This document shows, piece after piece, positions 13,891 through 29,888 of a stretch of 64,000 nt of DNA. The notes under the pieces are model-generated. The model was not told the origin of the DNA. It saw only the letters and a program-made list of their open reading frames with translations, and did no database searches. The position numbers and the translations under genes were made by a program. The stretch's first letter is position 1. Every line of letters begins with the position of its first letter. This DNA comes from Methanomassiliicoccus sp. (GTDB lineage Archaea; Thermoplasmatota; Thermoplasmata; Methanomassiliicoccales; Methanomassiliicoccaceae), in contig JAAYAX010000011.1 of NCBI GenBank assembly GCA_012719175.1, forward strand, positions 124,001 to 188,000, in the 5' to 3' direction.

Positions 13891-15180
13891 TTACGCTTTC
13901 TGTGCGGAGGCCTTGGCCTTCTCTGCTGCAGCCGCAGGCTTGGCAGCGCCCTCGGCCTTCGCCGGCCTTGCCGCCACCTTGCCTTCTGCCTTGGCGCCCT
14001 CGGCAGCGGCCGGAGCGGCATTGGGATCGGTGGCATCTAGCAGCAGCTCAGATATGTCCAGCACCTTGATGTCCGCGCCGATCTGCTTGGCCCCTGCCTG
14101 AAGGTTGAGGACACAGAACGGGCAAGTCGTTACCAGGATATCCGCACCGGTGGCGATGGCCTCCTTCACCCTCTCCGCGGCTATGTTGACGGCGAGCTGG
14201 TTGTACCCGCTCTTGTAGCCGCCTCCCGCGCCGCAGCAGCGCGAGCCCATGCGGTTGCGGGGCATCTCCACCAGCTCCACGCCGGGGATCTTCTTGAGCA
14301 CCTCTCGGGGGTCCTCGAACACTCCTCCGTGCCTACCTAGATGGCAGGGGTCGTGGTAGGTGATCTTGGCCTTGATATCCTTGGTGAACTTGAGCTTCTT
14401 CTCCTTGATCAGCTTGTTCACGAACTGCGAGAAGTGGTACACCGGGAAGGAGGGGTTGGAGAAGTACTTCCCGTAGTCGGTAGAGGAGGTCTTGAAGCAG
14501 CCGGCGCAGGTGGTGACCATGGCCTGGGCCCCCCTCTTCTCGACGGCCCGGATGTTGTGCTGTGCGAACTCGGTGGTGAGACCGGTCTGCCCGGTCCTGA
14601 GCATGGGGGAGGTGCAGCAGTACTCCTCTCCTCCCAGAATGTCCAGCTTAACGCCGGCGCGGTGCAGAACGGTGGCCCCGGCCTTGGCGATCCTCTGCAT
14701 CCTGTACGATCCGGTGCAGCCCGCGTAGAAGATGATGTCGGGATGTTCGGTGTGGGGTATCTCTGACGGCCACCAGTCGCCGCGCTTCTCCCTCGGCTCG
14801 TTGTAGGGGTTGCTGAAGTCCTTGATGCTCTGGGCGAGCTTGGAATGCGCCGGCAAGGGACCCTTCCCCTGGTCCACGACCCACTCCCTGACCTTCTCCC
14901 AGAACTCCGCGAACTCGATGTTGACGTGGCATACGGTCTCGCACTGGGCGCACCCGGTGCAGCTGAACAGGGCGTCCACGAACTCCTGGTCGACCTTAAC
15001 CTTGCGTCCCAACAATGTGTCCATCGGGGAGCGCTTCATCAATTGTGTAAGGTAGAATACCTTGCCCCGGGGAGTAACGGACTCCCACGGCGTCTGCTCG
15101 TAAGTGGGGCAGACCCGTACGCAATAACCGCATTGCAGACAAGCAAGAAGTTCCCTATTGATATCCGGCATCTTTACCAT
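13891..15180 (-). CDS. HdrD-like iron-sulfur protein (two 4Fe-4S clusters, two CCG domains)
   Basis: A 429-residue soluble electron-transfer protein. Residues 14-24 (CLQCGYCVRVC) and 74-84 (CTGCAQCETVC) bind two [4Fe-4S] clusters. Two CCG domains follow: the first reads YAGCTGSY, EEYCCTSP and TTCAGC, the second DPCHLGRHG, SRCCGAGGG and TTCPFC. These motifs hold the active-site cluster in HdrD/HdrB, which reduce CoM-S-S-CoB, and in GlcF-like proteins. No HdrE cytochrome is adjacent. The last 50 residues are an odd Ala/Lys/Glu/Pro-rich tail (AAPAAAEGAKAEG) not expected for the family. It could be a heterodisulfide reductase subunit or the redox partner of the neighbouring Ehr-type complex. ATG 15171 is an alternative start. 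Confidence 0.85.
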   Translation of the reverse strand: MVKMPDINRELLACLQCGYCVRVCPTYEQTPWESVTPRGKVFYLTQLMKRSPMDTLLGRKVKVDQEFVDALFSCTGCAQCETVCHVNIEFAEFWEKVREWVVDQGKGPLPAHSKLAQSIKDFSNPYNEPREKRGDWWPSEIPHTEHPDIIFYAGCTGSYRMQRIAKAGATVLHRAGVKLDILGGEEYCCTSPMLRTGQTGLTTEFAQHNIRAVEKRGAQAMVTTCAGCFKTSSTDYGKYFSNPSFPVYHFSQFVNKLIKEKKLKFTKDIKAKITYHDPCHLGRHGGVFEDPREVLKKIPGVELVEMPRNRMGSRCCGAGGGYKSGYNQLAVNIAAERVKEAIATGADILVTTCPFCVLNLQAGAKQIGADIKVLDISELLLDATDPNAAPAAAEGAKAEGKVAARPAKAEGAAKPAAAAEKAKASAQKA

Positions 15181-15342: not shown

Positions 15343-15888
15343 TCATCCATCCAGGATGGGTTCGTAGCCATACCAGCTTCCGCCCCTTTTCAGGTACTCC
15401 AGGTTGTCCTCGAGGGTCTTCTGATGCCCTCTCTCCCACTCCACGAGGCGCTGCATCAGCGCCTTCAGCTCCGGGTCCCGGGTCAAGGAAGCGACCTCGC
15501 CGTACATGCGCACGGAGGCCTTCTCCACCTCAATACCCATCTCCACCGCCCTTATCTCATCCTGGGAGGAGAAGCATGCTCCTGGGGGGACATCGGGGAA
15601 GGGACGTTGGGGAACGATATTGGCGTACTCCGGGTCCGGAGCGATGGTGTCTACGTTCTTTCCCGGGAAGATCCTGTCGACCTGCCTTATCAGCCAGGTA
15701 CGGTGGTCCTTCTCATCCTTGGCCAGGCTACGGAGGATCAGCTTTCCCTCCTTGTCCTTGACGCACTCGCTCATCCGCAGGTAGAAGTCCCTCCCGTAGG
15801 TCTCCACCTTTATGGCCGCCGCGAGCAGGCCCAGCTGTTTGTTGAGGATCTGCTGCTCCATCTTCCAATCGCTTCTCTCAGAACCCAT
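15343..15888 (-). CDS. Ferritin-like/rubrerythrin-type diiron protein
   Basis: A four-helix-bundle protein of about 181 residues (ATG 15888; ATG 15897, three residues earlier, is equally possible). The diiron ligands fit KVETYGRDFY, AKDEKDHRTWL, EVEKASVRMYGE and EWERGHQKTLEDN, that is the E...ExxH pattern twice. There is no C-terminal rubredoxin domain (no CxxC pairs), unlike full rubrerythrin. Such proteins remove peroxide or sense oxygen in anaerobes. It stands between the HdrD-like gene, read in the same direction, and the divergent Ehr operon; the oxygen-sensitive partners on both sides make a protective role plausible. Confidence 0.85.
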   Translation of the reverse strand: MGSERSDWKMEQQILNKQLGLLAAAIKVETYGRDFYLRMSECVKDKEGKLILRSLAKDEKDHRTWLIRQVDRIFPGKNVDTIAPDPEYANIVPQRPFPDVPPGACFSSQDEIRAVEMGIEVEKASVRMYGEVASLTRDPELKALMQRLVEWERGHQKTLEDNLEYLKRGGSWYGYEPILDG

Positions 15889-15920
15889 ATCCCTCACTCA
15901 GTAAGAGATTGATGCCATCG

Positions 15921-16067: not shown

Positions 16068-16133
16068 ATGGCCAGAACGTTAGAGGTTGAACATCGAAAA
16101 GGAGCGCCGCCCCTCAAGCTGGTCCTTCGATGA
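16068..16133 (+). CDS. Candidate leader peptide, 21 residues
   Basis: ATG 16068 opens a 21-codon frame (MARTLEVEHRK...LKLVLR) whose stop TGA overlaps the ATG of the first Ehr gene by the sequence ATGA. It begins about ten bases after the predicted transcription start, so ribosomes could load on it and re-initiate on the large gene. The peptide resembles nothing known and may be chance; I include it because the overlap would set translation of the operon. Confidence 0.25.
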   Translation: MARTLEVEHRKGAPPLKLVLR

Positions 16134-18196
16134 ACGGTCAAGAGCTTTTCGGTTTGTTCATCCTTACCTCGCTCCTAGGAGCGCTGGCATCGCTTTCGAT
16201 GGGAAGATGGTCCAAGGCCTGTCGGGTGGTGTCCTTCTCTTTTTCCACCTTATCCTCCATGTTGGGACTGGCCCTGGCCCTGGAGGTGCTGCTGGGGAGC
16301 GGGACCGTCGTCCTCACCCTCCCCACGGCCGTGGCCGGCTTCGGCACCTTCTCCTTTGTCATCGATCAGTTATCAGCATTCTTCCTGCTGGCCATCTCTA
16401 TCCTGGGAGCATGCGTATCCATCTACTCACTGGGCTACACCAAGGAGTACGAGGGCAAGTACAGCCTGGGGACCATGGGGCTGCTGTTCAACACCTTCCT
16501 GCTGAGCCTGGTCCTGGTAGTATCGGCGGACAACGCCATCCTTTTCCTGATAATGTGGGAGACCATGTCGGTCTCCTCTTACCTGCTGGTCATGTACGAG
16601 AACAGGAAACAGGACAGCGTGTCCTCGGGTTTGCTGTACGTGGTCATGACCCACCTGGGCACCGCCCTCATCACCGTGGCGTTCATCATAATGTGGCTTA
16701 ACACTCCCGGCGACCACTCCTTCGACTTCTCGGCGTTCCGGGAGCTCGGCGCTCTGGGCGCGATGCCGGAGCTGGCGAGGAACGTCGCGTTCATCCTATT
16801 GCTCATCGGCTTCGGCACCAAGGCCGGCCTGGTGCCCCTGCACGTGTGGCTGCCCCAGGCCCATCCTGCCGCTCCCTCCAACATCTCGGCCATGATGTCC
16901 GGCATCATGGTGAAGACCGCTGTCTACATGCTCATCCGTTGCTACTTCGACTTCCTCGGCACCTGGGACACGTGGTGGGGCCTCCTGGTGCTTCTCATCG
17001 CCTGCATATCAGCGCTGGTGGGTGTGCTGTACGCCTTGATGGAGGAGGACCTGAAGCGGGCCCTGGCCTACTCCACGGTGGAGAACATCGGCATAATCTT
17101 CATCGCCCTGGGGGCGGCCATGGTCTTCGAGTCCTACCATCTGGTCGATCCTGTGGCCAACGCCCATCTGGGCGACCTGGCGGCGCTGGCCCTGATCGCT
17201 GCATTGTTCCACACCCTTTCCCATTCTCTCTTCAAGGGCCTGCTGTTCATGGGGGCGGGGGCAGTCCTCCATGCCACGCACACCAAGAACCTGGAGGAAC
17301 TGGGAGGCCTGGCCAAGAGGATGAGGTGGACGGGGGTGCTGTTCTTCATCGGGGTGCTGTCGATCTCCGCCATCCCTCCCTTCAACGGTTTCGTCGGGGA
17401 ATGGCTGATGTTCCAGTCCCTGCTGCTGACGCAGAACATCACCGATCCCATGGTAAACCTACTTCTCCCCGTGGCCGTGGCCGTCCTGGCCCTCACGGGG
17501 GCACTGGCAGCCGCCTGCTTCGTGCGCATCTTCGGAGCTACGTTCCTGGCCAGGCCGAGGAGCAGGCACGCCGCGGAGGCCCAGGAGGTCCCCCGGAGCA
17601 TGCTCGTGGGCATGGGGATCGCCGCCGGGCTGTGCGTGCTCACCGGCGTTCTCTCGATATTGATAGTTCCCGAGATCGACAAGGTGACCTCCTCCCTCCT
17701 CGGTGTGAGCATCGCCGGGAAGCTGGTCAACGGCCTCATCCTCAGCCCGCCAGCAGGGGAGTTCTCCAGCATGAGCCCCCTGGCCATCGGCGTTCTGCTA
17801 ATGATCGCCATACCCGCATCCCTGGCCATCTCCCGTTTTCTAGGCGGCAGGCACAAGGTCGTGACCGGGGACACCTGGGACTGCGGCACCCCCCTAACGT
17901 CGCGCACCGAGTACAGCGCGTCCGGGTTCTCCGAGCCGATCAACCGCATCTTCAAGTCCGTGTACCGGCCGCACATCGAGGTGAGGACGGAGTACACCAC
18001 ATCCTCGCTCATCAAGAGACGGATCTCCTTCTCCCGTAGCATCGAACCGGTGTTCGAAAGATATCTCTACGCTCCCACGATCGGCCTGGTATTGGCGTTG
18101 GCCAGACGCCTGGGGTTCATCCAGAGGGGAAGCATACAGGCCTACCTGGCGTACATCTTCGTCGTCCTCCTGGTACTGCTGGTGGTGTTCCGATGA
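16130..18196 (+). CDS. Ehr/Hyf-like complex, NuoL/HyfB-type antiporter-like subunit
   Basis: A 688-residue polytopic membrane protein, the large antiporter-like subunit of a complex I/group 4 hydrogenase-type complex. The conserved core reads TKAGLVPLHVWLPQAHP and continues to SGIMVKTAVYMLIR, carrying the buried lysine line used for ion transfer; a second conserved line is EDLKRALAYSTVENIG. The C-terminal third has the GDTWDCGTP segment typical of HyfB/HycC. It would move protons or sodium ions across the membrane. The start ATG overlaps a short leader frame, and the stop overlaps the next gene by four bases (ATGA). The gene order that follows is that of hyf: B, C, E, F, G, H, I, with no hyfD. 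Confidence 0.9.
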   Translation: MNGQELFGLFILTSLLGALASLSMGRWSKACRVVSFSFSTLSSMLGLALALEVLLGSGTVVLTLPTAVAGFGTFSFVIDQLSAFFLLAISILGACVSIYSLGYTKEYEGKYSLGTMGLLFNTFLLSLVLVVSADNAILFLIMWETMSVSSYLLVMYENRKQDSVSSGLLYVVMTHLGTALITVAFIIMWLNTPGDHSFDFSAFRELGALGAMPELARNVAFILLLIGFGTKAGLVPLHVWLPQAHPAAPSNISAMMSGIMVKTAVYMLIRCYFDFLGTWDTWWGLLVLLIACISALVGVLYALMEEDLKRALAYSTVENIGIIFIALGAAMVFESYHLVDPVANAHLGDLAALALIAALFHTLSHSLFKGLLFMGAGAVLHATHTKNLEELGGLAKRMRWTGVLFFIGVLSISAIPPFNGFVGEWLMFQSLLLTQNITDPMVNLLLPVAVAVLALTGALAAACFVRIFGATFLARPRSRHAAEAQEVPRSMLVGMGIAAGLCVLTGVLSILIVPEIDKVTSSLLGVSIAGKLVNGLILSPPAGEFSSMSPLAIGVLLMIAIPASLAISRFLGGRHKVVTGDTWDCGTPLTSRTEYSASGFSEPINRIFKSVYRPHIEVRTEYTTSSLIKRRISFSRSIEPVFERYLYAPTIGLVLALARRLGFIQRGSIQAYLAYIFVVLLVLLVVFR

Positions 18197-19128
18197 TCGT
18201 AGAGGTCCTGCAGACCATCCTGCTCGTGGCCATCGCGCCCCTCATCACCGGCATCATCCGCAAGGTCAAAGCCTATCTGCAGAGCAGGACCGGCCCCAGC
18301 ATCCTTCAGCCCTACCGGGACCTGAGGAAGCTGTTCTCCAAGGGTTCAGTGGTATCAAAAGATGCCTCCTGGGTCTTCACCATCACTCCCTACGTCTGCC
18401 TGTCCGCGATCATGGTGGCAGCCCTCCTCGTCCCAGTAATCTATGCCCGGACGTTCGGGTTCGTGGGCGACCTCATAGTGCTCATCTATCTCCTATCGAT
18501 GATGCGGTTCTTCATGGCCCTGGCGGCCCTGGACACCGGCTCCGCCTTCGGGGGCATGGGGTCCAGCAGGGAGATGTACATCTCCTCCATCGTGGAGCCC
18601 ACCATGCTGCTGTCCATCTTCGCCATGGCCCTGGTCGCGGGGACGACCTCCCTGGGCAACATCGCCGACGGCATCGCCACCAACGGCTGGGACCTGGTGG
18701 CCCCCACCCTGCTTTTGGCCGCGGCGGCCTTCTTCATCGCCACCTTGGCAGAGAACGCCAGGGTGCCCTTCGACAACCCCGCGACGCACCTGGAGCTGAC
18801 CATGATCCATGAGGCCATGCTCCTGGAGTACTCGGGAAAGCAGCTGGCGCTGATGGAGATATCCTCAATGACCAAGCTCATCATCTTCCTGGCCATCCTT
18901 TCCAACGTATTCTTCCCCTGGGGTATTGCCACCGACCTCACGGTCCTGTCCCTGACCGGTGGCCTGCTGGCCTTCCTGGTGAAGGTCCTGGTGCTGGCAG
19001 TGACGATCGCGGTCATCGAGTCCGCGACGGCCAAGATGAGGCTGTTCCGCCTGCCCAACATCCTGACCGTGGCCTTCATCCTCTCCCTTCTCGCTGTCAT
19101 GTCCTTCTACATACTGGGGGCGACCTGA
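18193..19128 (+). CDS. Ehr/Hyf-like complex, NuoH/HyfC-type subunit
   Basis: A 311-residue membrane protein of the NuoH/HyfC/EchB family, which links the membrane arm to the soluble electron-transfer arm. The family segment RTGPSILQPYRDLRKLF (residues 33-49) is intact, as are the acidic loop ENARVPFDNPATHLELTM (residues about 195-212) and the helix run with EYSGKQLALME. About eight membrane helices are evident. The gene overlaps its upstream neighbour by four bases, and the next gene starts directly after its stop codon, so the operon is translated as a unit. Confidence 0.9.
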   Translation: MIVEVLQTILLVAIAPLITGIIRKVKAYLQSRTGPSILQPYRDLRKLFSKGSVVSKDASWVFTITPYVCLSAIMVAALLVPVIYARTFGFVGDLIVLIYLLSMMRFFMALAALDTGSAFGGMGSSREMYISSIVEPTMLLSIFAMALVAGTTSLGNIADGIATNGWDLVAPTLLLAAAAFFIATLAENARVPFDNPATHLELTMIHEAMLLEYSGKQLALMEISSMTKLIIFLAILSNVFFPWGIATDLTVLSLTGGLLAFLVKVLVLAVTIAVIESATAKMRLFRLPNILTVAFILSLLAVMSFYILGAT

Positions 19129-19794
19129 ATGGCTTTCTCCACCACCACCATCATCGACGGCCTGGCCGCGGCCATCCTGCTCACCACCTTCATAGCCATC
19201 GCCAGCAACCGTATGTTCTCCCTGGTCCGCCTGTTCGCCCTGCAGTCAGTGGCCCTGGGGCTGCTGGCGATGTCCGTGGCCTCCATCACCGGCGCGGGGC
19301 ACATCTACGCCGTGGCGGTCCTGACCATCGGCATAAAGGGAGTGGTCATACCCTGGATGCTGCTGTACGTTATGGACAAGATAAGGACCACCAAGGAGGT
19401 CGAGCCCCTGGTCAGCATACCCCTGTCCCTACTGCTGTGCGGGGTCCTGACCGCAGTGGCGTTCTACATAACGGAGCCCATAATCTTCACCAGCGGGACC
19501 ATCACCACCATCACCAAGAACTGTCTGGCCATCTCCCTGGCGGTGGTTCTCATCGGCTTCTATACCATGATCGCGCGCAAGAAGGCGGTCACCCAGATCA
19601 TGGGGCTGCTGACCATGGAGAACGGCCTGTTCCTCGCGGCCATCTCCGTCACCTACGGAATGCCCATGATCGTGGAGCTGGGCATCTTCTTCGACATTCT
19701 GGTCGCGGTCCTCATCATGGGCATGTTCGCCTTCCGCATAAACAAGACCTTTGACAGCGTGGACACCACCATCCTGAGGAGGCTGCACGATTGA
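19129..19794 (+). CDS. Ehr/Hyf-like complex, HyfE-type (NuoK-like) subunit
   Basis: A 221-residue membrane protein with about six or seven helices, of the HyfE/NuoK-related type found in Hyf-like and Ehr complexes. It starts immediately after the NuoH-type gene. The GIKGVVIPWMLLYVM line (residues about 66-80) and EKxVEP-like TKEVEPLVSIP are typical of HyfE. Conserved acidic residues within membrane helices (EVEP region, VELGIFFDILV) may take part in ion transfer. Its presence, absent from ech operons, is one reason to call the complex Hyf-like. The stop overlaps the next start by four bases. Confidence 0.85.
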   Translation: MAFSTTTIIDGLAAAILLTTFIAIASNRMFSLVRLFALQSVALGLLAMSVASITGAGHIYAVAVLTIGIKGVVIPWMLLYVMDKIRTTKEVEPLVSIPLSLLLCGVLTAVAFYITEPIIFTSGTITTITKNCLAISLAVVLIGFYTMIARKKAVTQIMGLLTMENGLFLAAISVTYGMPMIVELGIFFDILVAVLIMGMFAFRINKTFDSVDTTILRRLHD

Positions 19795-21263
19795 TCGAGT
19801 ATATCCTCCTCATACCCCTGATCATCGCCGCCTTATGCTACCCTCTGCGCAGGAGGGCCTTGGTGGAGGCGGTGGCGGTGGCAGGCTCGGCGGTGACCCT
19901 GATAGCATCTCTGTCGATCTCCTACGAGGTGTTCACAACCGGGACCCTGGACGAGGGCCTGCTGTACATGGACGCCCTGTCCGCCTACGTTCTGCTCCTG
20001 GTCTCCCTGGTCGGACTCCTGGCCTGCTTTTACTCCATATCCTACCTCCGCCGGGAGCTGGAGGAGGGGGAGATCACCGAGCTGAAGCTCAGGAACTACT
20101 ACATCTTCTTCCAGCTCTTCGTCTTCACGATGCTCCTGGTCACCGTCTCCAACAACCTGGGCATCATGTGGATCGCCATAGAGGGCACCACCCTGGCGTC
20201 CGCCTACCTGGTAGGTCTTTACGACCGTGACACCTCCATCGAGGCCGCCTGGAAGTACCTCGTCATCTGCTCCGTGGGCATAACCCTGGCCCTTCTGGGG
20301 ACCATCATCGTCTACGCCTCCTCCATACAGGTCCTGGGCGAGGAGTCCAACGCCCTCAACTGGTCCACCCTGCAGGCCAACGCCTCCGCCCTGGACCCAG
20401 GGCTCCTGAAGATATCATTCATATTCATTCTCGTGGGGTACGGCACCAAAGTGGGGCTGTCACCCATGCACACGTGGCTGCCCGACGCCCATTCTCAGGC
20501 CCCCACCCCTGTCTCGGCCCTGTTGTCCGGGGTCCTGCTGAACTGCGCCATGTACGGCATCCTCCGCTTCCACATGATAGTCTCCGGCTCCTCGCTCGGT
20601 GCCGGTTTCTCAGGCGGACTTCTGCTCTTGTTCGGCATAATATCCGTGGCCACCGCGGGGGCCTTCATCATAATGGCCAAGGACTACAAGCGGATGCTCG
20701 CATACTCCTCCATAGAGCACATGGGCATCATTGCCATCGGCTTCGGCTTCGGGGGCTTCTGGGGCATCTTCGGGGCGCTCTTCCACATGCTGAACCACGC
20801 CCTCGCCAAGACCCTCCTGTTCTTCGGTGCGGGTAAGGTCCTGCAGCGCTTCCACACCAAGGACATCGACAAGGTGCACGGCCTCATCAAGGTCCTGCCG
20901 GTAACTGGTGCGCTGTTGCTAGGCGGAGGGCTGGCCATCACCGGGTGCCCGCCCTTCTCGCTGTTCCTGAGCGAGTTCATGATAATGGTCGGGGGGCTCA
21001 GCTCGCAGAACTATCTGGGCACCATACTATACATCGTGCTGCTGATCATCGTGTTCGCGGCCTTCCTAAAGCACATCGGGGGCATGGTCTTCGGGGAACC
21101 ACTGCTGGAGGAGAGGCCCTCCAAGGAGAGGCGGGGCACCGATGTGGTGATGATGGCGGTCCTCCTGATCGCCATCCTGGCGTTGGGCCTGTACGTCCCC
21201 GAGTTCTTGAACGAGGTTCTGGACCAGGTATACCGCCTGTTCGTGCCAGGGGGCGGAGCATGA
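19791..21263 (+). CDS. Ehr/Hyf-like complex, HyfF/NuoN-type antiporter-like subunit
   Basis: A 490-residue antiporter-like membrane protein of the HyfF/NuoM/NuoN group, the second ion-translocating subunit of this complex. The core line is TKVGLSPMHTWLPDAHS, followed by APTPVSALLSGVLLNCA and KRMLAYSSIEHMGI. About fourteen helices are visible. The first residues start at ATA/TTG-free sequence; the start used is TTG 19791 (TTGATCGAGTAT), overlapping the previous stop TGA. Together with the NuoL-type subunit this gives two antiporter-like subunits, where E. coli Hyf has three. Confidence 0.88.
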   Translation: MIEYILLIPLIIAALCYPLRRRALVEAVAVAGSAVTLIASLSISYEVFTTGTLDEGLLYMDALSAYVLLLVSLVGLLACFYSISYLRRELEEGEITELKLRNYYIFFQLFVFTMLLVTVSNNLGIMWIAIEGTTLASAYLVGLYDRDTSIEAAWKYLVICSVGITLALLGTIIVYASSIQVLGEESNALNWSTLQANASALDPGLLKISFIFILVGYGTKVGLSPMHTWLPDAHSQAPTPVSALLSGVLLNCAMYGILRFHMIVSGSSLGAGFSGGLLLLFGIISVATAGAFIIMAKDYKRMLAYSSIEHMGIIAIGFGFGGFWGIFGALFHMLNHALAKTLLFFGAGKVLQRFHTKDIDKVHGLIKVLPVTGALLLGGGLAITGCPPFSLFLSEFMIMVGGLSSQNYLGTILYIVLLIIVFAAFLKHIGGMVFGEPLLEERPSKERRGTDVVMMAVLLIAILALGLYVPEFLNEVLDQVYRLFVPGGGA

Positions 21264-22846
21264 CCGTGGAGAAACTGCGCCGGATCGTGGAAGAGCTGCC
21301 TCCGGAGCTGTACTCCAAGGTGCGTGCTGCGAAGGTACGCGGCAACGACCTGCGTCTGCTGACCGGGATAGACGACCTCGCTTCCCTGGCCAAGCACATC
21401 CACGGAGCACACCAGGCCTCTCTGGTCACCATGCACGCCACCGATGACCGGGCGGCGGAGGACTGCTTCAAGCTCTACGTGGTGCTGTCTCCCCGAGGGA
21501 TCGACGCCTACGTCACCATCATCGCCCCCCTCGAGCCCCGCTCCCAGAGGTTCGTGTCCCTCACCCCTCAGATCAATGAGGCGGATTGGTACGAGAGGGA
21601 GGTCCAGGACATGTTCGGCCTGGAGGCCGTCGGCCATCCCGACCCCCGACCACTGGTCCTTTACGATGATTGGCCCCAGGGCGAGCACCCTTTGCGGAAG
21701 GACTTTCCGCTGGACCGCCGGCCACCGCGGGTCAGGAGCGCGTACCATTTCACCAAGGTCGAGGGCGAGGGCGTGTACGAGATACCCGTGGGCCCGGTGC
21801 ATGCGGGGGTCATCGAACCGGGCCATTTCCGCTTCTCCGTAGCCGGGGAGCCCATCATCAACCTGGAGGTACGGCTGGGGTACGTCCATAAGGGGATAGA
21901 GAAGATATCGGAGAGCACACCCTATTGGAGGGGGACCCACCTCGCCGAGCGCATATCCGGGGACAACTCCGTCGCCCACTCCACCGCCTACTGCCAGACC
22001 GTCGAGGCCCTTGCCTCGGCGGAGGTACCGGAGCGCGCGGAGTACATCCGCACAGTGATGCTGGAGCTGGAGCGAATATACAACCTCATCGGGGACATAT
22101 CCGGCATTGCCCTGGACACGGCCTTCAGTGTAGGCGCCGCCAACGGCTACCTGCTGAGGGAGAAGGCCCTCAACCTCAACGAGTGCCTGACCGGCTCCCG
22201 GCTGCTGCGCTCGGTGAACGTCATCGGCGGGGTGAGGAAGGACCTCTCCGCCAACGATAGGGAGAAGACCCTCTCTGCCCTCGTGCGGCTGAAGCTGGAG
22301 TTCGAGGACCTGGTGGACCTGATGATCACGTCCACCTCGCTTCTGGACAGGGTGGAGACCACGGGTAGGCTGTCCATGGAGATGGCCGTGAGGCTCAACG
22401 TGGTCGGCCCAGTGGCGAGGGCTAGCGGTGTCGACCGTGACGTCCGCAGGGACCATCCCTACGCCGCGTACGACAGGCTGAACTTCCTGGTGCCCCGGGG
22501 AACGGCCGGCGATGTCAACGCCCGGACCAGACTGAAGATGGACGAGGTGAGGGAGTCGTTCTCGCTCATCGACCAGGCCCTGGACGGCATGCCCGCCGGC
22601 CCCATCCGTACAGTGGTGGACAACATCCCCGCGGGGGAGATAGCCATGTCCCTGGTGGAGTCCCCCCGGGGGGAGCTGGTCCACTGGATCCTGGCCGGGA
22701 AGGAGAAACCTTACCGGCACAAGATACGGGACGCGTCCTTCTGCAACTGGCTGGCGATGGAGGAGGCGGTCCTGGGCAACATCGTCCCCGACTTCCCGTT
22801 GATCAACAAGAGCTTCAACCTTTCATATTCGGGGAACGACCTGTGA
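21260..22846 (+). CDS. Ehr complex large subunit, NuoC-NuoD fusion lacking the [NiFe] cysteines
   Basis: A 528-residue fusion. Residues about 50-155 are a NuoC/HyfG-N domain (YEREVQDMFG at 111-120, HPLRKDFPL at 143-151). Residues 160-528 are the NuoD/hydrogenase large-subunit domain. Where a [NiFe] hydrogenase has ExRxCGICxxxH, this protein has ERISGDNSVAH (230-240) with no cysteine, and the C-terminus (SFNLSYSGNDL) lacks the DPCxxCxxR motif altogether. All four nickel ligands are therefore missing, while the fold-specific SVNVIGGVRKDLS and VGPVARASGVDRDVR lines remain. This defines an Ehr-type complex, a hydrogenase relative that cannot handle H2. The acceptor, perhaps a quinone-like, disulfide or flavin carrier, is unknown. 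Start ATG 21260 overlaps the previous stop (ATGA). Confidence 0.9.
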   Translation: MTVEKLRRIVEELPPELYSKVRAAKVRGNDLRLLTGIDDLASLAKHIHGAHQASLVTMHATDDRAAEDCFKLYVVLSPRGIDAYVTIIAPLEPRSQRFVSLTPQINEADWYEREVQDMFGLEAVGHPDPRPLVLYDDWPQGEHPLRKDFPLDRRPPRVRSAYHFTKVEGEGVYEIPVGPVHAGVIEPGHFRFSVAGEPIINLEVRLGYVHKGIEKISESTPYWRGTHLAERISGDNSVAHSTAYCQTVEALASAEVPERAEYIRTVMLELERIYNLIGDISGIALDTAFSVGAANGYLLREKALNLNECLTGSRLLRSVNVIGGVRKDLSANDREKTLSALVRLKLEFEDLVDLMITSTSLLDRVETTGRLSMEMAVRLNVVGPVARASGVDRDVRRDHPYAAYDRLNFLVPRGTAGDVNARTRLKMDEVRESFSLIDQALDGMPAGPIRTVVDNIPAGEIAMSLVESPRGELVHWILAGKEKPYRHKIRDASFCNWLAMEEAVLGNIVPDFPLINKSFNLSYSGNDL

Positions 22847-22855
22847 GGTGCCAAG

Positions 22856-23179
22856 ATGTTCAAGTTCCTTAAGCTGGGAGTGCTAAAGAGGGGGGTTCAG
22901 ACCAAGCCTTACCCGCAGGAGCCTGTGGTGCCCTACGATGCCTTCATGGGTCTGCCGGAAGTAGACGGGGCGGCGTGCGACCGCTGCTCGCATTGCGTGT
23001 CCGTCTGCCCGGTGCAGGCCATCTCCCTGACCGAGGAGGGCGTGGAGATATCCACGGCCCGGTGCATCTTCTGCGGTGACTGCGCGGAGGCATGCCCCAA
23101 GGCCATCAAGATGAGCCGGGAGTTCGAGCTGGCCGCGACGTCGAAGGAGGACCTTAGGGTGGTGTACCGCCATGGATGA
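22856..23179 (+). CDS. Ehr complex, NuoI/HyfH-type 2[4Fe-4S] ferredoxin subunit
   Basis: A 107-residue iron-sulfur protein with two complete [4Fe-4S] motifs: Cys41, 44, 47, 51 (CDRCSHCVSVCP) and Cys70, 73, 76, 80 (CIFCGDCAEACP). It passes electrons between ferredoxin, or another donor, and the proximal cluster of the small subunit. It is short, like EchF and HyfH. It sits nine bases after the large-subunit gene and overlaps the small-subunit gene by eight bases. Confidence 0.92.
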   Translation: MFKFLKLGVLKRGVQTKPYPQEPVVPYDAFMGLPEVDGAACDRCSHCVSVCPVQAISLTEEGVEISTARCIFCGDCAEACPKAIKMSREFELAATSKEDLRVVYRHG

Positions 23180-23639
23180 GGAGACCGAGAGGCTGGGGGA
23201 AGAGCTCAGGAACAAGGTGAGGGAGGTCTTCGGCCGCTCCCTGGCCATTAGAGAGGTGGACGCGGGCTCGTGCAACGGCTGTGAGGTGGAGGTCAACTCC
23301 CTAACGAACGCCATCCACGACATCGAGCGGTTCGGTCTGCACATCGTGGCCTCCCCACGCCATGCGGACATGCTGCTGGTGACCGGTCCGGTGACCCGCA
23401 ATATGGAGCTTCCGCTGCGGCAGACCTACAACGCCACTCCCAGTCCCAAGATGGTGGTGGCCATGGGCTCTTGTGCCATATCCGGGGGCATATACCGCGG
23501 ATCCTATGCGGTCCTGGACGGTGTCGATAAGGTGCTCCCCGTGGATGTTTACATCCCTGGCTGCCCTCCCCGCCCCCAGGCCATCATACAGGGGATAATG
23601 GTGGCCTTAGGCAAGATGGAGGAGAGGAAGGGTCTTTAA
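23172..23639 (+). CDS. Ehr complex small subunit, NuoB/HyfI-type
   Basis: A 155-residue protein of the NuoB/HyfI/EchC family carrying the proximal [4Fe-4S] cluster. The four ligands are present: Cys34 and Cys37 (GSCNGCEVEV), Cys101 (GSCAISGG) and Cys131 (GCPPRP). So the electron path into the large subunit is intact although the large subunit has lost its nickel site. ATG 23172 lies inside the end of the NuoI-type gene. It is the last gene of the operon; a 200-base spacer with a small inverted repeat (GATCA-G-TGATC, 23704-23714) follows. Confidence 0.92.
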   Translation: MDEETERLGEELRNKVREVFGRSLAIREVDAGSCNGCEVEVNSLTNAIHDIERFGLHIVASPRHADMLLVTGPVTRNMELPLRQTYNATPSPKMVVAMGSCAISGGIYRGSYAVLDGVDKVLPVDVYIPGCPPRPQAIIQGIMVALGKMEERKGL

Positions 23640-24321: not shown

Positions 24322-24744
24322 TTACTTGACCACGATCACGGTACAGCCGGAATTACGCACCACGTACTCGGACACCGAGCCGATGAGCACCCGGTCCAGG
24401 GCGGTCTTGCCCGATGTGCCCACGATGATGGCCCCGGCCTTGATCCTCTCAGCTGTGGCCAGTATCGTTTGGTAGGGTGATCCTCCTTCAAGCAAGGTGG
24501 TCACTTCCAACCCCCGGTCTAACGCCAGGTTCTTTATGTCGACGAGCTTGGCCATCCCCTCTTTGATAAGCTCCGTCTTCTCCGACTCGTTCTTGGGACT
24601 GACCACGTACACCACGAACAGCTTCGACGATGTGAGGGCGGCCATCTCGATGGCGTAGTTGATGGCCTTCATCGAGTGTGGCTTTCCGTCCGTCGCCAGC
24701 AACAGGTTCCTTCCCTGTATCTGACCTTCCGAGGTCTCCTCCAT
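24322..24744 (-). CDS. Universal stress protein (UspA family)
   Basis: A 140-residue UspA protein starting at ATG 24744 (MEETSEGQIQGRN); the frame extends upstream but that part does not match the family. The strand NLLLATDGKPHSMKA and the ATP-loop region GTSGKTALDRVLIGSVSEYVV are intact, with the last residues TVIVVK as usual. It shares most of its C-terminal third with the neighbouring Usp. Its start is 123 bases from echA, which points the other way, so the two promoters share one spacer containing the inverted repeat at 24835-24846. Confidence 0.9.
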   Translation of the reverse strand: MEETSEGQIQGRNLLLATDGKPHSMKAINYAIEMAALTSSKLFVVYVVSPKNESEKTELIKEGMAKLVDIKNLALDRGLEVTTLLEGGSPYQTILATAERIKAGAIIVGTSGKTALDRVLIGSVSEYVVRNSGCTVIVVK

Positions 24745-24834
24745 GATCGGTGGAAGGTGGAACTGCGAAATAAAAGGTTGTTCCAGCGGATCAGACCAAA
24801 GATTCAGCGTCCTCCAGACCACTGATGGTGCGAA

Positions 24835-24867: not shown

Positions 24868-26745
24868 ATGGAACCGGTGGAGCTGTTGGCGGTTGTTCTG
24901 ATCATCGTTCCGATCCTCGGCGCGATGGCCAGTTTGCTCACAAGGGGTAACATGGGGCTCAAGGTAACAGTGGCCCTGACCACCGGCGTGATCTCCGTAT
25001 CATCACTGGCCCTGTTCCTGCTCATCTCTCCAGGTACTTTCCAGTCGGAGATCGAGGCCTCCTCCCTCTTTCCCATGGGCCCGGCCATGATCGCCATCGA
25101 TCTCCTGCTGGCAGCTCTATTCGTGTACATAGGGTGGCGCATCCGGAGCTATCTGGTCATGGGCATCGCCACCGCCAACCTCGTACTGGCCATCCTGTTG
25201 GACGTACTGACAGGCTTTCAGGAGGTCAACCCTGCCCTGGTGATCGACCATCTGGCGGTCATCATGGTCCTTATCACCAGCCTGATAGGCTCCATCATCG
25301 CCATCTATTCCCTGAGGTACATGGAAAATGACCTCCACCGGCCCCGTTTCTTCGCGGCGGTGCTGCTGTTCCTGGGTTCCATGAACGGGGCCGTTCTGTC
25401 CAACGACCTGCTGTGGCTCTTCGTGTTCTGGGACCTCACCACCCTATGCTCCTTCCTGCTCATCGGCCATACCGGGACGGACGAGGCCAAGAGGGCGGCC
25501 CGCTGGGCCTTGACGGTCACTCTAGGGGGAGGGCTGGCGTTCATATTCGGTACAGTGCTGGCATTCCATTACAACGGCTCCCTCGCCCTGACCGCCTTCC
25601 CCATATCAGGGGCCAACGATCTGGCGCTCCTCCCTATGGCCCTGCTGTCGGTGGCCGCCTTCACGAAGTCCGCCCAGGTCCCGTTCCAGTCTTGGTTGCT
25701 GGACGCCATGGTGGCCCCCACCCCGGTCTCCGCCCTGCTGCATTCGGCCACGATGGTCAACCTCGGCGTGTACCTCCTCATAAGGATGTCCCCCAACCTG
25801 GCGGGATCGCCCTCTCTCAGCGCCGTCATCGCCCTGGTGGGAGGAGTGACATTCCTAGCCTCATGCATTCTGGCCATCACCCAGAGCAATGCCAAGAAGG
25901 TGCTGGCATGGTCTACCATCGGCAACCTCGGCCTCATCACCATGTGCGTCGGCATCTCCACGCCACTGGCGGTCACTGCCGCTGTCGTTCTCCTCCTGTA
26001 TCACGCCATCTCCAAGGCCTTGATGTTCCTGTCAGTGGGGGTGGTCAAAGAAAGGTTACAAAGCGAGGACATAGAGGACATGCAGGGCCTACGCACCTCC
26101 ATGCCCTTCGCCAGCACGGCGCTGTCCATCGGCATCCTGACCATCGTCCTTCCTCCCTTCGGCATGTTCGCCTCCAAGTGGTTGATAAGCGAGGCGGCGG
26201 TGACCTTCCCCTTCCTCATGTTCTTCCTGGGGGTGGGCTTCGCGGGCATGGTGGTCTTCTACTTCAAGTGGATGGGGACCATCCTCTCCGTCGGTCCCGG
26301 GGTCCGCTCCACCCCCTTGAAGGGCGATCCCCTGGCCCGCAACTACTTCTGGACCCTGGGAACCCTTATGGTCGGTGCCGTGGCCCTGTCCGCCCTGATA
26401 GGCCCAGTGCTCCGCAGCCTGGTGCTGCCCTTCGTCGAACGGCACTTCCCGCTCCCCGTGGGTACTGATGACCTCACCCTTTTCACCTCCTCGGGGGAGT
26501 TCCCGGTGTTCCTGTTCCTCCTCTTCGTGGCCATCATCGTCTTGGGCCTGGGTATTATAGTGCGTCCGGAGGAGGAAGAGGTGAGCACGCCCTATGCGTG
26601 CGGGGAGACCTTTGAGTTCGAGTACCGCGGCAACTACTACCTGGGGGAAGAACACGTGAGGCAGGGGATCGCGCTCACCGAGGCCGTGGGAGCCGTCCTG
26701 GTGGGAGCCGTCCTGCTACTGCCTCTCCTTCTGGAGGTGCTGTGA
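24868..26745 (+). CDS. echA: Energy-converting hydrogenase Ech, antiporter-like subunit
   Basis: A 625-residue membrane protein of the NuoL/EchA family, the ion-translocating subunit of the Ech [NiFe] hydrogenase. The core segment reads TKSAQVPFQSWLLDAM, then APTPVSALLHSATMVNLGVYLLIR, and KKVLAWSTIGNLGL. About sixteen helices are visible, with a C-terminal segment STPYACGETFEFEYRGNYY like that of EchA. It starts the six-gene operon echABCDEF in the same order as in Methanosarcina. The stop overlaps echB by four bases. Confidence 0.92.
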   Translation: MEPVELLAVVLIIVPILGAMASLLTRGNMGLKVTVALTTGVISVSSLALFLLISPGTFQSEIEASSLFPMGPAMIAIDLLLAALFVYIGWRIRSYLVMGIATANLVLAILLDVLTGFQEVNPALVIDHLAVIMVLITSLIGSIIAIYSLRYMENDLHRPRFFAAVLLFLGSMNGAVLSNDLLWLFVFWDLTTLCSFLLIGHTGTDEAKRAARWALTVTLGGGLAFIFGTVLAFHYNGSLALTAFPISGANDLALLPMALLSVAAFTKSAQVPFQSWLLDAMVAPTPVSALLHSATMVNLGVYLLIRMSPNLAGSPSLSAVIALVGGVTFLASCILAITQSNAKKVLAWSTIGNLGLITMCVGISTPLAVTAAVVLLLYHAISKALMFLSVGVVKERLQSEDIEDMQGLRTSMPFASTALSIGILTIVLPPFGMFASKWLISEAAVTFPFLMFFLGVGFAGMVVFYFKWMGTILSVGPGVRSTPLKGDPLARNYFWTLGTLMVGAVALSALIGPVLRSLVLPFVERHFPLPVGTDDLTLFTSSGEFPVFLFLLFVAIIVLGLGIIVRPEEEEVSTPYACGETFEFEYRGNYYLGEEHVRQGIALTEAVGAVLVGAVLLLPLLLEVL

Positions 26746-27608
26746 TGGAGCCCGTGACCCTGCTTGTGCAGATAGCGATCATCGTCCTCGCCCCCATTGC
26801 GGTGGGTCTGCTGAGGGGTGTGGACAGGAAGCTCACGGCACGGATGCAGAACCGCCGCGGTCCCCCCGTGGTGCAGCCGTTCTACGATATGGTCAAGCTG
26901 CTGTCCAAGAAACCTATCCTCATCAACAACCTCCAGGTGACCTTCGCCGCCACCTCCCTGCTGTTCCAGGTCGCTGCCCTGGCCCTGTTCGTGGCAGGAG
27001 GGGACCTGATTATCGCCTTCTTCGTCTCCGGGGCGGGGGCGATATTCCTGGTGCTGGGGGCGTTCAGCGTGCGCTCTCCCTACTCATATCTTGGGGGTCA
27101 AAGAGAGCTTCTTGCCATCCTCGCCTACGAGCCGGTTCTGTTCCTGGCCATCTTGTCCCTGGGCATGCGCGGCTCCTTCCTGGTTAGCGACATCCAGGGC
27201 GGCCTGCTGGTGGACCTCCCCCTGGTGCTGCTGGCCCTGATCCCGGTGATGGTGATACTGCTGGAGAAGTCGCCATACGACGTCCCTGCCGCGCACCAGG
27301 AGCTTATATCCGGGCCATACGTCGAGTATTCTGGACCCTACCTTGCCATCATGGAAGGGGCCCGCTGGTTCCAGTTGGCCTTTGTTCTGGGGGTGATAAC
27401 CCTGTTCGTTTGGCACGATAATACAGCGGTCTCGTTGTTAGGGAAGGCGGCCATCGTCCTCCTCGTGCTCCTCGTCACCATCGTCATAGATAACATCACG
27501 GCCCGCCTGACCCGGGAGCGGATGGTCATGTTCATGCTGACCGTGGGGATCGCCCTGGTGGCCGTCAATATGATATACCTTACCATTTTCCCGGAGGGGC
27601 TGATCTGA
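26742..27608 (+). CDS. echB: Ech hydrogenase membrane subunit, NuoH type
   Basis: A 288-residue membrane protein of the NuoH/EchB family. The family line RRGPPVVQPFYDMVKLL (residues 38-54) is intact, and the acidic loop EKSPYDVPAAHQELISGPYVEYSG (in two parts, about 173-197) supplies the conserved carboxylates at the junction with the soluble arm. About eight helices are visible. ATG 26742 overlaps the echA stop (ATGA); the last base of its stop codon is the first of the echC start codon. Confidence 0.92.
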   Translation: MMEPVTLLVQIAIIVLAPIAVGLLRGVDRKLTARMQNRRGPPVVQPFYDMVKLLSKKPILINNLQVTFAATSLLFQVAALALFVAGGDLIIAFFVSGAGAIFLVLGAFSVRSPYSYLGGQRELLAILAYEPVLFLAILSLGMRGSFLVSDIQGGLLVDLPLVLLALIPVMVILLEKSPYDVPAAHQELISGPYVEYSGPYLAIMEGARWFQLAFVLGVITLFVWHDNTAVSLLGKAAIVLLVLLVTIVIDNITARLTRERMVMFMLTVGIALVAVNMIYLTIFPEGLI

Positions 27609-28045
27609 TGGGGCTCGTACAAGGATCGAGGAAGAGGTCACCGTGGATCCTGCATTTCGACACTGGTTCCTGCAACGGCTGCGACCTGGAGGTGTGGGCG
27701 CTGCTCACACCGCGCTACGATGTGGAGAGGTTCGGCGCGGTCAACAAGGCCAACCCCAAGCACGCCGACATCCTGCTGATCACCGGACCAGTCACCAAGA
27801 GATGCGAGGACCGGTTGCGCAACCTCTACGAGCAGACCTCGGGCCCCAAGCTGGTGGTGGCATGCGGAGATTGCGCCTCCACCGGGGCGCCCTTCCATAA
27901 TTGCTATAATGTGTGCGGGGGAGTGGACAAGGTGATCCCCGTGGACGTCTACGTGCCGGGGTGTGCAGCCCGACCGGAGGCCCTCATTGACGGCCTAGTG
28001 CTAGCCCTTTCTCTATGGGAAAAGAGGATGGAGGATGAAGGATGA
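27608..28045 (+). CDS. echC: Ech hydrogenase small subunit (proximal 4Fe-4S)
   Basis: A 145-residue small subunit. The cluster ligands are Cys22 and Cys25 (GSCNGCDLEV), Cys89 (GDCASTG) and Cys119 (PGCAARP). It is shorter than the small subunits of other [NiFe] hydrogenases, as is normal for group 4 enzymes, where only the proximal cluster remains. It receives electrons from EchF and delivers them to the [NiFe] site in EchE. Start ATG 27608 overlaps the echB stop by one base; the stop overlaps echD by four. Confidence 0.94.
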   Translation: MGLVQGSRKRSPWILHFDTGSCNGCDLEVWALLTPRYDVERFGAVNKANPKHADILLITGPVTKRCEDRLRNLYEQTSGPKLVVACGDCASTGAPFHNCYNVCGGVDKVIPVDVYVPGCAARPEALIDGLVLALSLWEKRMEDEG

Positions 28046-28422
28046 CAACGGAGGAACCGCAGTTCGACCGCAGTGACGTCATCGACGTTCGGAGGCGTTT
28101 CAAGGGCTTCCTGGATGCCGGGAGCAGGTTCATAGCCCTGGTGGTCCGGGATAGTGAGGACGGCAATTTTGAGCTCATTTACGTTTTCGATCAGGACGAG
28201 AAGATGACCGACTTCCGGTTCGCCATCCCAGTAGACCAGGAGGTGGACTCGGTCGCTGACATCTACCCCGGGGCGATGACCGCGGAGAGGGAGGCGGTGG
28301 ACCTGTTCGGGGTGAGGTTCAAAGGCGTTCGCCCCGGCCTTTTCCTCGTTGAAGGGAAGAGCCCCCCCGAACCGCTTAGGAAGCGTCAGGCCGACGTAAA
28401 GGGGGGTGACGTACCTGGCTAG
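28042..28422 (+). CDS. echD: Ech hydrogenase subunit D, NuoC type
   Basis: A 126-residue soluble subunit of the NuoC/EchD family that packs against the large subunit. The recognisable part is SVADIYPGAMTAEREAVDLFGVRF (in two stretches, about 72-95), the short equivalent of the NuoC ExxDMFG region. Its counterpart in the Ehr operon is fused to the large subunit, a clear difference between the two clusters. The end overlaps the echE start by 17 bases. Confidence 0.88.
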   Translation: MTTEEPQFDRSDVIDVRRRFKGFLDAGSRFIALVVRDSEDGNFELIYVFDQDEKMTDFRFAIPVDQEVDSVADIYPGAMTAEREAVDLFGVRFKGVRPGLFLVEGKSPPEPLRKRQADVKGGDVPG

Positions 28423-29491
28423 AGCTACTGTGATCCCCTTCGGCCCACAGCACGCCGCGTTCCTGGAGCCCGTGAACGTGAAGCTGGTGCTGGAGGAGGA
28501 GAAGGTGGTGGGCGCGGAGCTGAACCAGGGATACAACCATCGGGGCATGGAGCACGCCCTGTCCCTGGACTACAAGAAGTCCCAGTACCTGTGCGAGAGG
28601 GTCTGCGGCATCTGCTCATATCATCACTCTTCCTGCTATTGCCAGGGGATGGAGGCCATCTACGGCGTGGAGGCCCCCCTGCGCGCCCAGCTCATCCGCA
28701 CCATCATGATGGAGTGTCAGCGTCTGACATCTCATCTTCTGGCCCTAGGCCATATAGCCGAGGCCGTTGGATATGAGAACCTGTTCATGCAGTGTTTCCG
28801 GGAGAGGGAGTTCGTCATGATGCTCGTCAACCGCCTCTCCGGAAACCGGGTGCATTACAGCATGAACGTCATCGGCGGGGTCAAGAGGGACGTGGGCCCG
28901 GAGCAGGTCAAGGACGTGGAGGCTACCATGAAGGAGGTCCGTCCGCGACTGGAGGAGCTGCAGAGGGTGTTCCGCCGGGACAGCACCCTAGGGAAGAGGA
29001 CCCATGGGGTGGGCAGCTTCCCGAAGCCGGCGGCAGAGAGCTGGGCAACGGTGGGGCCCGTCTCCCGGGCCTCCGGGATCCCTCGGGACATCAGACAGGA
29101 CGGCTTCGCCGCCTATTCCGAGGTCAAGTTCGCTCCCATAGTGCGGGAGGAGGGGGACATCTACGCGCGCATGATGGTGCGAATGGACGAATGCCTGCAA
29201 TCTGTAGACATCATCGAGGAGTGCCTCCCCCTCCTGCCAGACGGCCCCGCGGCGGTGCAGGTCAAGGGCCACCCCACCGGGGAGACGTTCTCTAGGGTGG
29301 AAGCTCCCAGAGGAGAGCTCATGTACTACATCCGTGCCAAGGGAGCGCTGGCTCTGGACCGTATCAAACTGCGCACCCCGGCCCTCATGAACGTGCCGGC
29401 CCTGCTGGCGATGCTTCCGGGATGCCAGCTGGCGGACGTACCGGGGATAGTGGTCTCTGTGGACCCCTGCATATGCTGCACGGACCGGTGA
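28406..29491 (+). CDS. echE: Ech hydrogenase catalytic [NiFe] large subunit
   Basis: A 361-residue [NiFe] large subunit, group 4. The N-terminal nickel motif is CERVCGICSYHH (63-74), with Cys67 and Cys70 as ligands, and the C-terminal motif is DPCICCTDR (353-361), with Cys355 and Cys358. All four nickel ligands are present, unlike in the Ehr large subunit of the same window. The protein ends directly at the arginine of the second motif, so no C-terminal peptide has to be cut off during maturation, as is known for Ech-type enzymes. It catalyses reversible H2 formation with ferredoxin. The start is GTG 28406, inside echD. Confidence 0.94.
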   Translation: MTYLARATVIPFGPQHAAFLEPVNVKLVLEEEKVVGAELNQGYNHRGMEHALSLDYKKSQYLCERVCGICSYHHSSCYCQGMEAIYGVEAPLRAQLIRTIMMECQRLTSHLLALGHIAEAVGYENLFMQCFREREFVMMLVNRLSGNRVHYSMNVIGGVKRDVGPEQVKDVEATMKEVRPRLEELQRVFRRDSTLGKRTHGVGSFPKPAAESWATVGPVSRASGIPRDIRQDGFAAYSEVKFAPIVREEGDIYARMMVRMDECLQSVDIIEECLPLLPDGPAAVQVKGHPTGETFSRVEAPRGELMYYIRAKGALALDRIKLRTPALMNVPALLAMLPGCQLADVPGIVVSVDPCICCTDR

Positions 29492-29495
29492 TCAC

Positions 29496-29888
29496 ATGTC
29501 CATGCTGACCTCCTCCCTCAAGAACCTGTTCCGGCGGCCGTTCACCACCCGCTATCCTCATGCTCCCGCGGATATCCCCCCTGGTAACAGGGGGAGGGTG
29601 ATGTGGGACATGGAGAAATGTATCTTCTGCCGCAGGTGCGAGCGCTCCTGCCCCACCAACGCCATCACCACCAACAAGGAGGCCAAGACCCAGAGGGTGG
29701 TGCGGAACCGATGTATCGCCTGTAATGTCTGCGTGGAGGTTTGTCCCACCCAGACCCTATCCATGGTGGCCGAGTACTCCAAGCCCGACGTAGCTCCCGT
29801 TGCCCACGTTTTCTCCGTCGACCTCCCGCGCCATGAGTATCGTGTCGAGCACCTTCCAAAGCATGGCGGGAAGAAGGACGCAGAATGA
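29496..29888 (+). CDS. echF: Ech hydrogenase 2[4Fe-4S] ferredoxin subunit
   Basis: A 130-residue iron-sulfur protein with two full motifs, Cys42, 45, 48, 52 (CIFCRRCERSCP) and Cys73, 76, 79, 83 (CIACNVCVEVCP). It is the entry point for electrons from soluble ferredoxin. The N-terminal 35 residues (TSSLKNLFRRPFTTRYP) are the short NuoI-like anchor that binds the complex. It starts four bases after echE and closes the operon. No hydrogenase maturation genes (hypA-F) follow. Confidence 0.93.
   Translation: MSMLTSSLKNLFRRPFTTRYPHAPADIPPGNRGRVMWDMEKCIFCRRCERSCPTNAITTNKEAKTQRVVRNRCIACNVCVEVCPTQTLSMVAEYSKPDVAPVAHVFSVDLPRHEYRVEHLPKHGGKKDAE

Follow-up and report, generated by a model that had tools for sequence, protein, structure and literature searches.

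Many Bacteria and Archaea carry energy-converting hydrogenase-related (Ehr) complexes. The complexes published as Ehr from Nitrospira and candidate-phylum (CPR) lineages lack the [NiFe] cysteines of hydrogenases and have Hyf-like subunits (PMC10284858, PMC7304191). For the candidate phyla only the absence of these cysteines has been reported (Jaffe et al., PMC7304191), and a recent paper calls the Ehr of Geobacter non-functional (PMC13194489). Neither a measured activity for any Ehr nor a description of graded cofactor loss in the family was found in the publications consulted. Other close systems are hydrogenase 4/FHL of E. coli (HyfG/HycE, group 4a), the Pyrococcus sulfane sulfur reductase MBS (6u8y), a ligand-poor hydrogenase relative of known chemistry that pumps ions (PMC7684303), and the Fpo-like complex of the Methanomassiliicoccales, for which ferredoxin input and HdrD output have been proposed.

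The window, a stretch of 64,000 nucleotides from Methanomassiliicoccus sp., comes from a 2.4 Mb genome of the Methanomassiliicoccales that contains mcrA and thus belongs to a methanogen. Among named relatives the closest is a Methanomassiliicoccus MAG, with 94% identity in the large subunit. The genome carries HdrD homologues and four NuoD-type proteins, comprising one Fpo-like protein, two with full Ech motifs, and the large subunit EhrL of the complex considered here. The operon and its neighbours are as follows.

13891..15180, minus strand: HdrD1-like protein with two CCG domains (PF02754 twice) and 4Fe-4S, a candidate electron acceptor
15343..15897, minus strand: rubrerythrin-like protein between hdrD1 and ehr (PF02915, 54 bits), co-conserved
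16130..18196, plus strand: hyfB-like antiporter subunit, 688 aa (NF005086, hydrogenase 4 subunit B, above cut-off)
18193..19128, plus strand: hyfC/NuoH-like membrane anchor, 311 aa (PF00146, NADHdh)
19129..19794, plus strand: hyfE/NuoK-like subunit, 221 aa (NF008556 at 101 bits, below the cut-off of 136)
19791..21263, plus strand: hyfF-like antiporter subunit, 490 aa (hydrogenase 4 subunit F models; PF00361)
21260..22846, plus strand: large subunit EhrL, a NuoC-NuoD fusion without [NiFe] ligands, 528 aa
22856..23179, plus strand: hyfH/NuoI-like subunit with two [4Fe-4S] motifs
23172..23639, plus strand: small subunit EhrS with the proximal-cluster ligands C34, C37, C101 and C131
23842..24282, minus strand: universal stress protein gene uspA, convergent with ehr
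24322..24822, minus strand: second usp gene
24868..29888, plus strand: ech1 operon, a true group 4 hydrogenase used as comparator

The seven ehr genes, all open and on the plus strand, form one operon at 16130-23639 in the order hyfB-C-E-F-G-H-I-like, with neighbouring frames that overlap or almost touch. Pfam finds a Complex1_30kDa and Complex1_49kDa fusion, Oxidored_q6, NADHdh and two Proton_antipo_M proteins, so that antiporter-like membrane subunits lie within the same operon, as expected of Ehr. The gene list and Pfam reveal no input gene for NADH, F420 or formate in the operon, which fits direct input from ferredoxin, and no MrpB/E/F/G-type partner is seen there. The fused large subunit and the hyf gene order had been taken to set the complex apart from the ech of the window; they do so, but a true Hyf hydrogenase has both.

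Three sites of EhrL were located by comparison with HycE.

21815..21817, plus strand: codon of E186, equivalent of the hydrogenase proton gate (HycE E193, MbhL E21)
21947..21979, plus strand: L1 site, residues 230-240, ERISGDNSVAH (HycE alignment)
22805..22843, plus strand: L2 site and protein end, residues 516-528 (HycE alignment)

The original prediction of a Hyf-like complex whose large subunit has lost every [NiFe] ligand is borne out. Its coordinates and frames hold, as does the L1 sequence in the 21260-22846 product, and the C-terminus, PDFPLINKSFNLSYSGNDL, ends in NLSYSGNDL where hydrogenases carry DPCxxCxxR. The four ligands of E. coli HycE are all replaced (C241 by S233, C244 by N236, C531 by S522 and C534 by G525), so that EhrL has none of the four L1 and L2 cysteines of group 4 [NiFe] hydrogenases; the Ech large subunit at 28406-29491 retains CGIC and DPCICC. 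Chance is a poor explanation: among 25 Thermoplasmata orthologues S233, G234, D235, N516, K517, S518, L521, S522, Y523, G525 and D527 are invariant, and the substitutes at three of the four ligand positions are invariant or nearly so. No column of this alignment is an invariant cysteine, hence no alternative set of four conserved Ni-Fe ligands exists. Both terminal-Ni cysteines are serine in 89 of 101 aligned family members. Selenocysteine was also considered, as many Thermoplasmata matches contain an in-frame TGA; in those examined nuoC and nuoD are separate genes and the TGA is the stop codon that divides them.

The proton path of the hydrogenases (PMC9474812 for the path and the role of HycE E193) is largely retained. 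The gate glutamate E186 is present in 99 of the 101 family members, and R387, E429 and R470 of EhrL correspond to R395, E437 and R478 of HycE; deviations are L276 at the pathway histidine H284 and N520 at D529. The quinone positions of complex I are replaced, Nqo4 H38 by I185 (101/101) and Y87 by G234 (100/101), unlike what is expected of a complex I or Fpo site. By sequence the nearest solved structure is HycE (7z0s_E, 309 bits), followed by MbhL (176) and then NuoD. At the sequence level the pocket thus looks like a hydrogenase pocket minus the metal, unlike a quinone site and unlike MBS.

The iron-sulfur subunits had been described as keeping all their cluster cysteines, and they do: four in EhrS (CNGC, GSC and PGC) and eight in the NuoI-type subunit (CxxCxxCxxxCP twice). 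By ligand count the cytoplasmic arm would hold three [4Fe-4S] clusters, with the electron path to the proximal cluster intact. The EhrS motif is the full-length CNGC, the CxxC type of group 4 hydrogenases, and not the tandem CC of NuoB in complex I and Fpo (E. coli NuoB aligns as SC--C). In the membrane arm E144, K231, K309, E318, H361, H365 and K369 of the hyfB-like subunit and E135, E187, E201, E212 and E276 of the hyfC-like subunit are conserved among relatives. The retained clusters and membrane charges are consistent with the predicted ability to carry electrons and move ions.

Compared with E. coli hydrogenase 4/FHL, the complex shares the C/D-fused large subunit, the hyfB-C-E-F-G-H-I order and proton-path residues but lacks the Ni-Fe ligands, HyfA, HyfD, HyfJ and the C-terminal extension, and its large subunit belongs to a separate clade. 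MBS is likewise a hydrogenase relative that lost ligands, but it has two cysteines, an open proximal cluster and no glutamate gate; Ehr is the opposite on all three counts, and neither the shortened proximal motif nor the two retained large-subunit cysteines of MBS occur here. The Fpo-like paralogue (C8, L001) also has a NuoD-type large subunit, FpoD, but sits on another tree branch. This protein (G000:C8:53075-54106) carries one L1 cysteine (DRLCYG) and one L2 cysteine (DVCMGETD). With the Nitrospira and CPR Ehr the complex shares the clade, the absence of [NiFe] cysteines and the Hyf-like subunits; it differs in keeping the NuoI-type subunit and all cluster cysteines and in its linkage to hdrD1, usp and ech1. 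A NuoI-type gene is missing from the N. moscoviensis locus (L064), and the candidate-phylum loci lack the proximal cluster as well.

A genome scan found at least 578 relatives across Bacteria and Archaea. Judged by sequence the complex is an Ehr complex, a new member of an already known family. In a tree of large subunits from which the L1 and L2 columns were excluded, and without Geobacter EhrL among its sequences, the family comes out as a separate clade (100/100) that does not include HycE, Ech or Fpo, with MbhL placed outside in another tree; EhrL of the window shares a 100/100 clade with Nitrospira and CPR members. This supports the Ehr assignment and puts the protein outside the HycE/Ech/MbhL/Fpo group, but the split is blurred. 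Family members from Brocadia, Thermincola, other Bacillota, Chloroflexi, Myxococcales and Terriglobia that carry the full set of four cysteines nest among Ehr (93/94), and the tree therefore draws no clean line between Ehr and hydrogenases. A single Ehr clade appears in 1% of bootstrap trees and is not rejected by the AU test (p = 0.207); the ligands may have been lost once or several times. A half-way form exists in a group of the Desulfosporosinus order (L092:4397-5824 and L192-L197), which reads ERISGIC...ELSYACVDR, with serine at both terminal-Ni positions and both bridging cysteines present, and which sits firmly among cysteine-bearing proteins (100/100 with L075). Two copies of this large subunit occur in one genome (G200). 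A Nitrospirae group reads SGVS, SGAS or SGTS, as though CGVC had been altered at both cysteines. A Chloroflexi member (L046:12006-12428) combines a four-cysteine large subunit with a small subunit that has D, C, E and D, three of them acidic, at the proximal positions.

The loss extends to the iron-sulfur clusters. Of 92 aligned small subunits, 77, including four references, retain the full set of cluster cysteines. In 13 Ehr rows the proximal-cluster cysteines are missing, the four positions reading D/T/S, C/T/E/P, D/G and D/N, and the operons of these 13 yielded no NuoI-type gene, those of L118 and L068 lying on short contigs. The cluster-less rows occupy two separate regions of the tree, an archaeal and Dehalococcoidales clade (L103, L106, L118, L129) and a candidate-phylum clade that includes L108 and L115. 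In three candidate-phylum MAGs of unstated completeness (G280, G281, G282) the ligand-less EhrS is the sole PF01058 protein and a NuoI-like protein was not detected, and in a Patescibacteria sample the cluster motif is absent from every EhrS match with an adjoining hyfB. The complete N. moscoviensis chromosome (L064) is intermediate, with the cluster cysteines kept and no NuoI-type motif in the 21.5 kb locus. The cluster-less members retain almost all charged residues of HyfB, HyfF and HyfC, and the hydrogenase proton-path residues are still present.

In the Methanomassiliicoccales a convergent usp gene adjoins ehr in 15 of 15 loci. This most constant neighbour in the order also follows ehr in the Methanoperedens/Methanosarcinaceae loci L040 and L041. 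The order hdrD1-rbr, ehr, usp, with hdrD1 and rbr divergent, recurs in six loci of two families; ech1 comes next in the window and in L039, and five more genomes of the family to which the window belongs have a second small-subunit match about 4 kb downstream of EhrS. In that family ehr is flanked by hdrD1 on one side and ech1 on the other. For cultured M. luminyensis, Table 6 of PMC4153887 gives hdrD1 as WP_019178460 and echA1 as WP_019178471 and lists no rbr, ehr or usp genes between them; the ten intervening accession numbers equal rbr, seven ehr and two usp genes, and ehr is thus probably present in this organism. The M. intestinalis accessions AGN25510 and AGN25511 (PMC4153887) suggest that hdrD1 and ech1 are adjacent there, as they are in G160, whose matches include no ehr orthologue. 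HdrD1 genes occur in relatives without a detected ehr orthologue (G005, G160, G164), so HdrD1 has another partner and cannot be an obligate partner of Ehr, and in family f2 the two are distant (1.43 Mb versus 0.90 Mb in G029). Across bacterial Ehr loci no redox partner gene recurs; the only recurrent neighbours are two-component regulators, usp and ArsR-like genes, and Pfam scans of neighbours give a sulfate permease, a helicase and a transporter.

The main reading, to which we give a probability of about one half, is that Ehr is an ion pump fed by ferredoxin that does not use H2. Reduced ferredoxin would donate electrons to the two clusters of the NuoI-like subunit, from which they would pass through the proximal cluster of EhrS to an acceptor other than protons. 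Redox and proton changes at the former active-site loop would then power the movement of H+ or Na+ by the HyfC/E/B/F arm, making Ehr an additional ferredoxin-oxidising pump next to the Fpo-like complex and Ech. Replacement of the four ligands, the hydrogenase-type CNGC, the proton-path residues and conserved membrane charges all speak for this reading, as does a host with mcrA, HdrD homologues, four NuoD-type complexes and the hdrD1-rbr/ehr/usp synteny. HdrD1, encoded next door, is the best candidate acceptor in this methanogen, though a doubtful one. Counted against the pump are the missing pathway histidine and the lack of a universal partner gene, and the existence of relatives without electron-carrying clusters means that electron flow may not be the purpose of the ligand-free head.

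That last point is the strength of a serious rival, which has a real if minor chance of being correct: Ehr may have ceased to be a redox enzyme and become a Mrp-like antiporter of cations and protons, in which the one-time hydrogenase head serves as a gate or proton relay, the window complex being a stage whose clusters are of little use. It gives the best account of the redox-free members, with their 13 operons lacking both proximal-cluster cysteines and a NuoI-type gene, the three candidate-phylum genomes, and the persistence of membrane charges and proton-path residues. In addition, four loci (L068, L074, L108 and L272) have ATP-synthase genes upstream of ehr in the same orientation, and L102 and L076 have such genes close by. 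It leaves unexplained why the two iron-sulfur subunits of the window retain all 12 cluster cysteines; the 77 of 92 small subunits with four cysteines mean that electron transfer is still under selection in most lineages, and the operon shows no MrpB/E/F/G-type partner.

The remaining alternatives place other chemistry, or none, in the vacated cavity. Reduction of a hydrophobic carrier (quinone- or methanophenazine-like), as in complex I, would suit the shared fold family and the genes for a lipid-soluble carrier in Methanomassiliicoccales (PMC4153887). It is nevertheless unlikely, because both quinone head-group residues are replaced, EhrS has no CC pair, the family falls outside NuoD and Fpo, and the Fpo-like paralogue of the same genome retains the tyrosine (DRLCYG). 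An MBS-like cleavage of S-S bonds (polysulfide or heterodisulfide) by the proximal cluster has a precedent in MBS and a disulfide reductase gene adjoining ehr; the open-Fe proximal cluster of MBS, however, needs a motif three residues shorter than the full-length one of EhrS, MBS lacks the gate glutamate (MbhL E21) that Ehr possesses, and it retains two of four cysteines against none in the window, which makes this quite improbable. Decay to a non-functional remnant of a hydrogenase, the case made for Geobacter Ehr (PMC13194489), would account for the lost metal site. Against it, the seven genes are open and syntenic, over 500 related loci were found, and across two domains of life the site substitutes and membrane charges vary hardly or not at all. 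This sequence constraint speaks against decay, which we regard as scarcely credible.

A broader reading, held tentatively and at somewhat less than even odds, is that Ehr records a stepwise dismantling of a redox machine, in which the [NiFe] ligands, the NuoI-type subunit and the proximal cluster were given up in that order. At least two lineages of complex I relatives without known redox ligands would then be cation/proton antiporters with a hydrogenase-derived proton gate, and the window complex a middle stage with its clusters still in place. In this sequence of events the half-way form survives, the ion-translocating arm stays intact and some bacterial operons stand beside ATP synthase. 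The same membrane arm with full, partial or no redox cofactors offers material on how complex I couples electron transfer to ion pumping, and the graded loss of redox ligands makes Ehr function testable; the window adds a possible role in methanogen energy metabolism. In candidate-phylum and related loci (L074:2223-6836, L068, L108, L272) the redox-ligand-free ehr directly follows atpG, atpD and atpC. An Altiarchaeales contig (L106:4808-20768) carries two tandem hyfB-C-E-F sets, the first with redox-free EhrL and EhrS.
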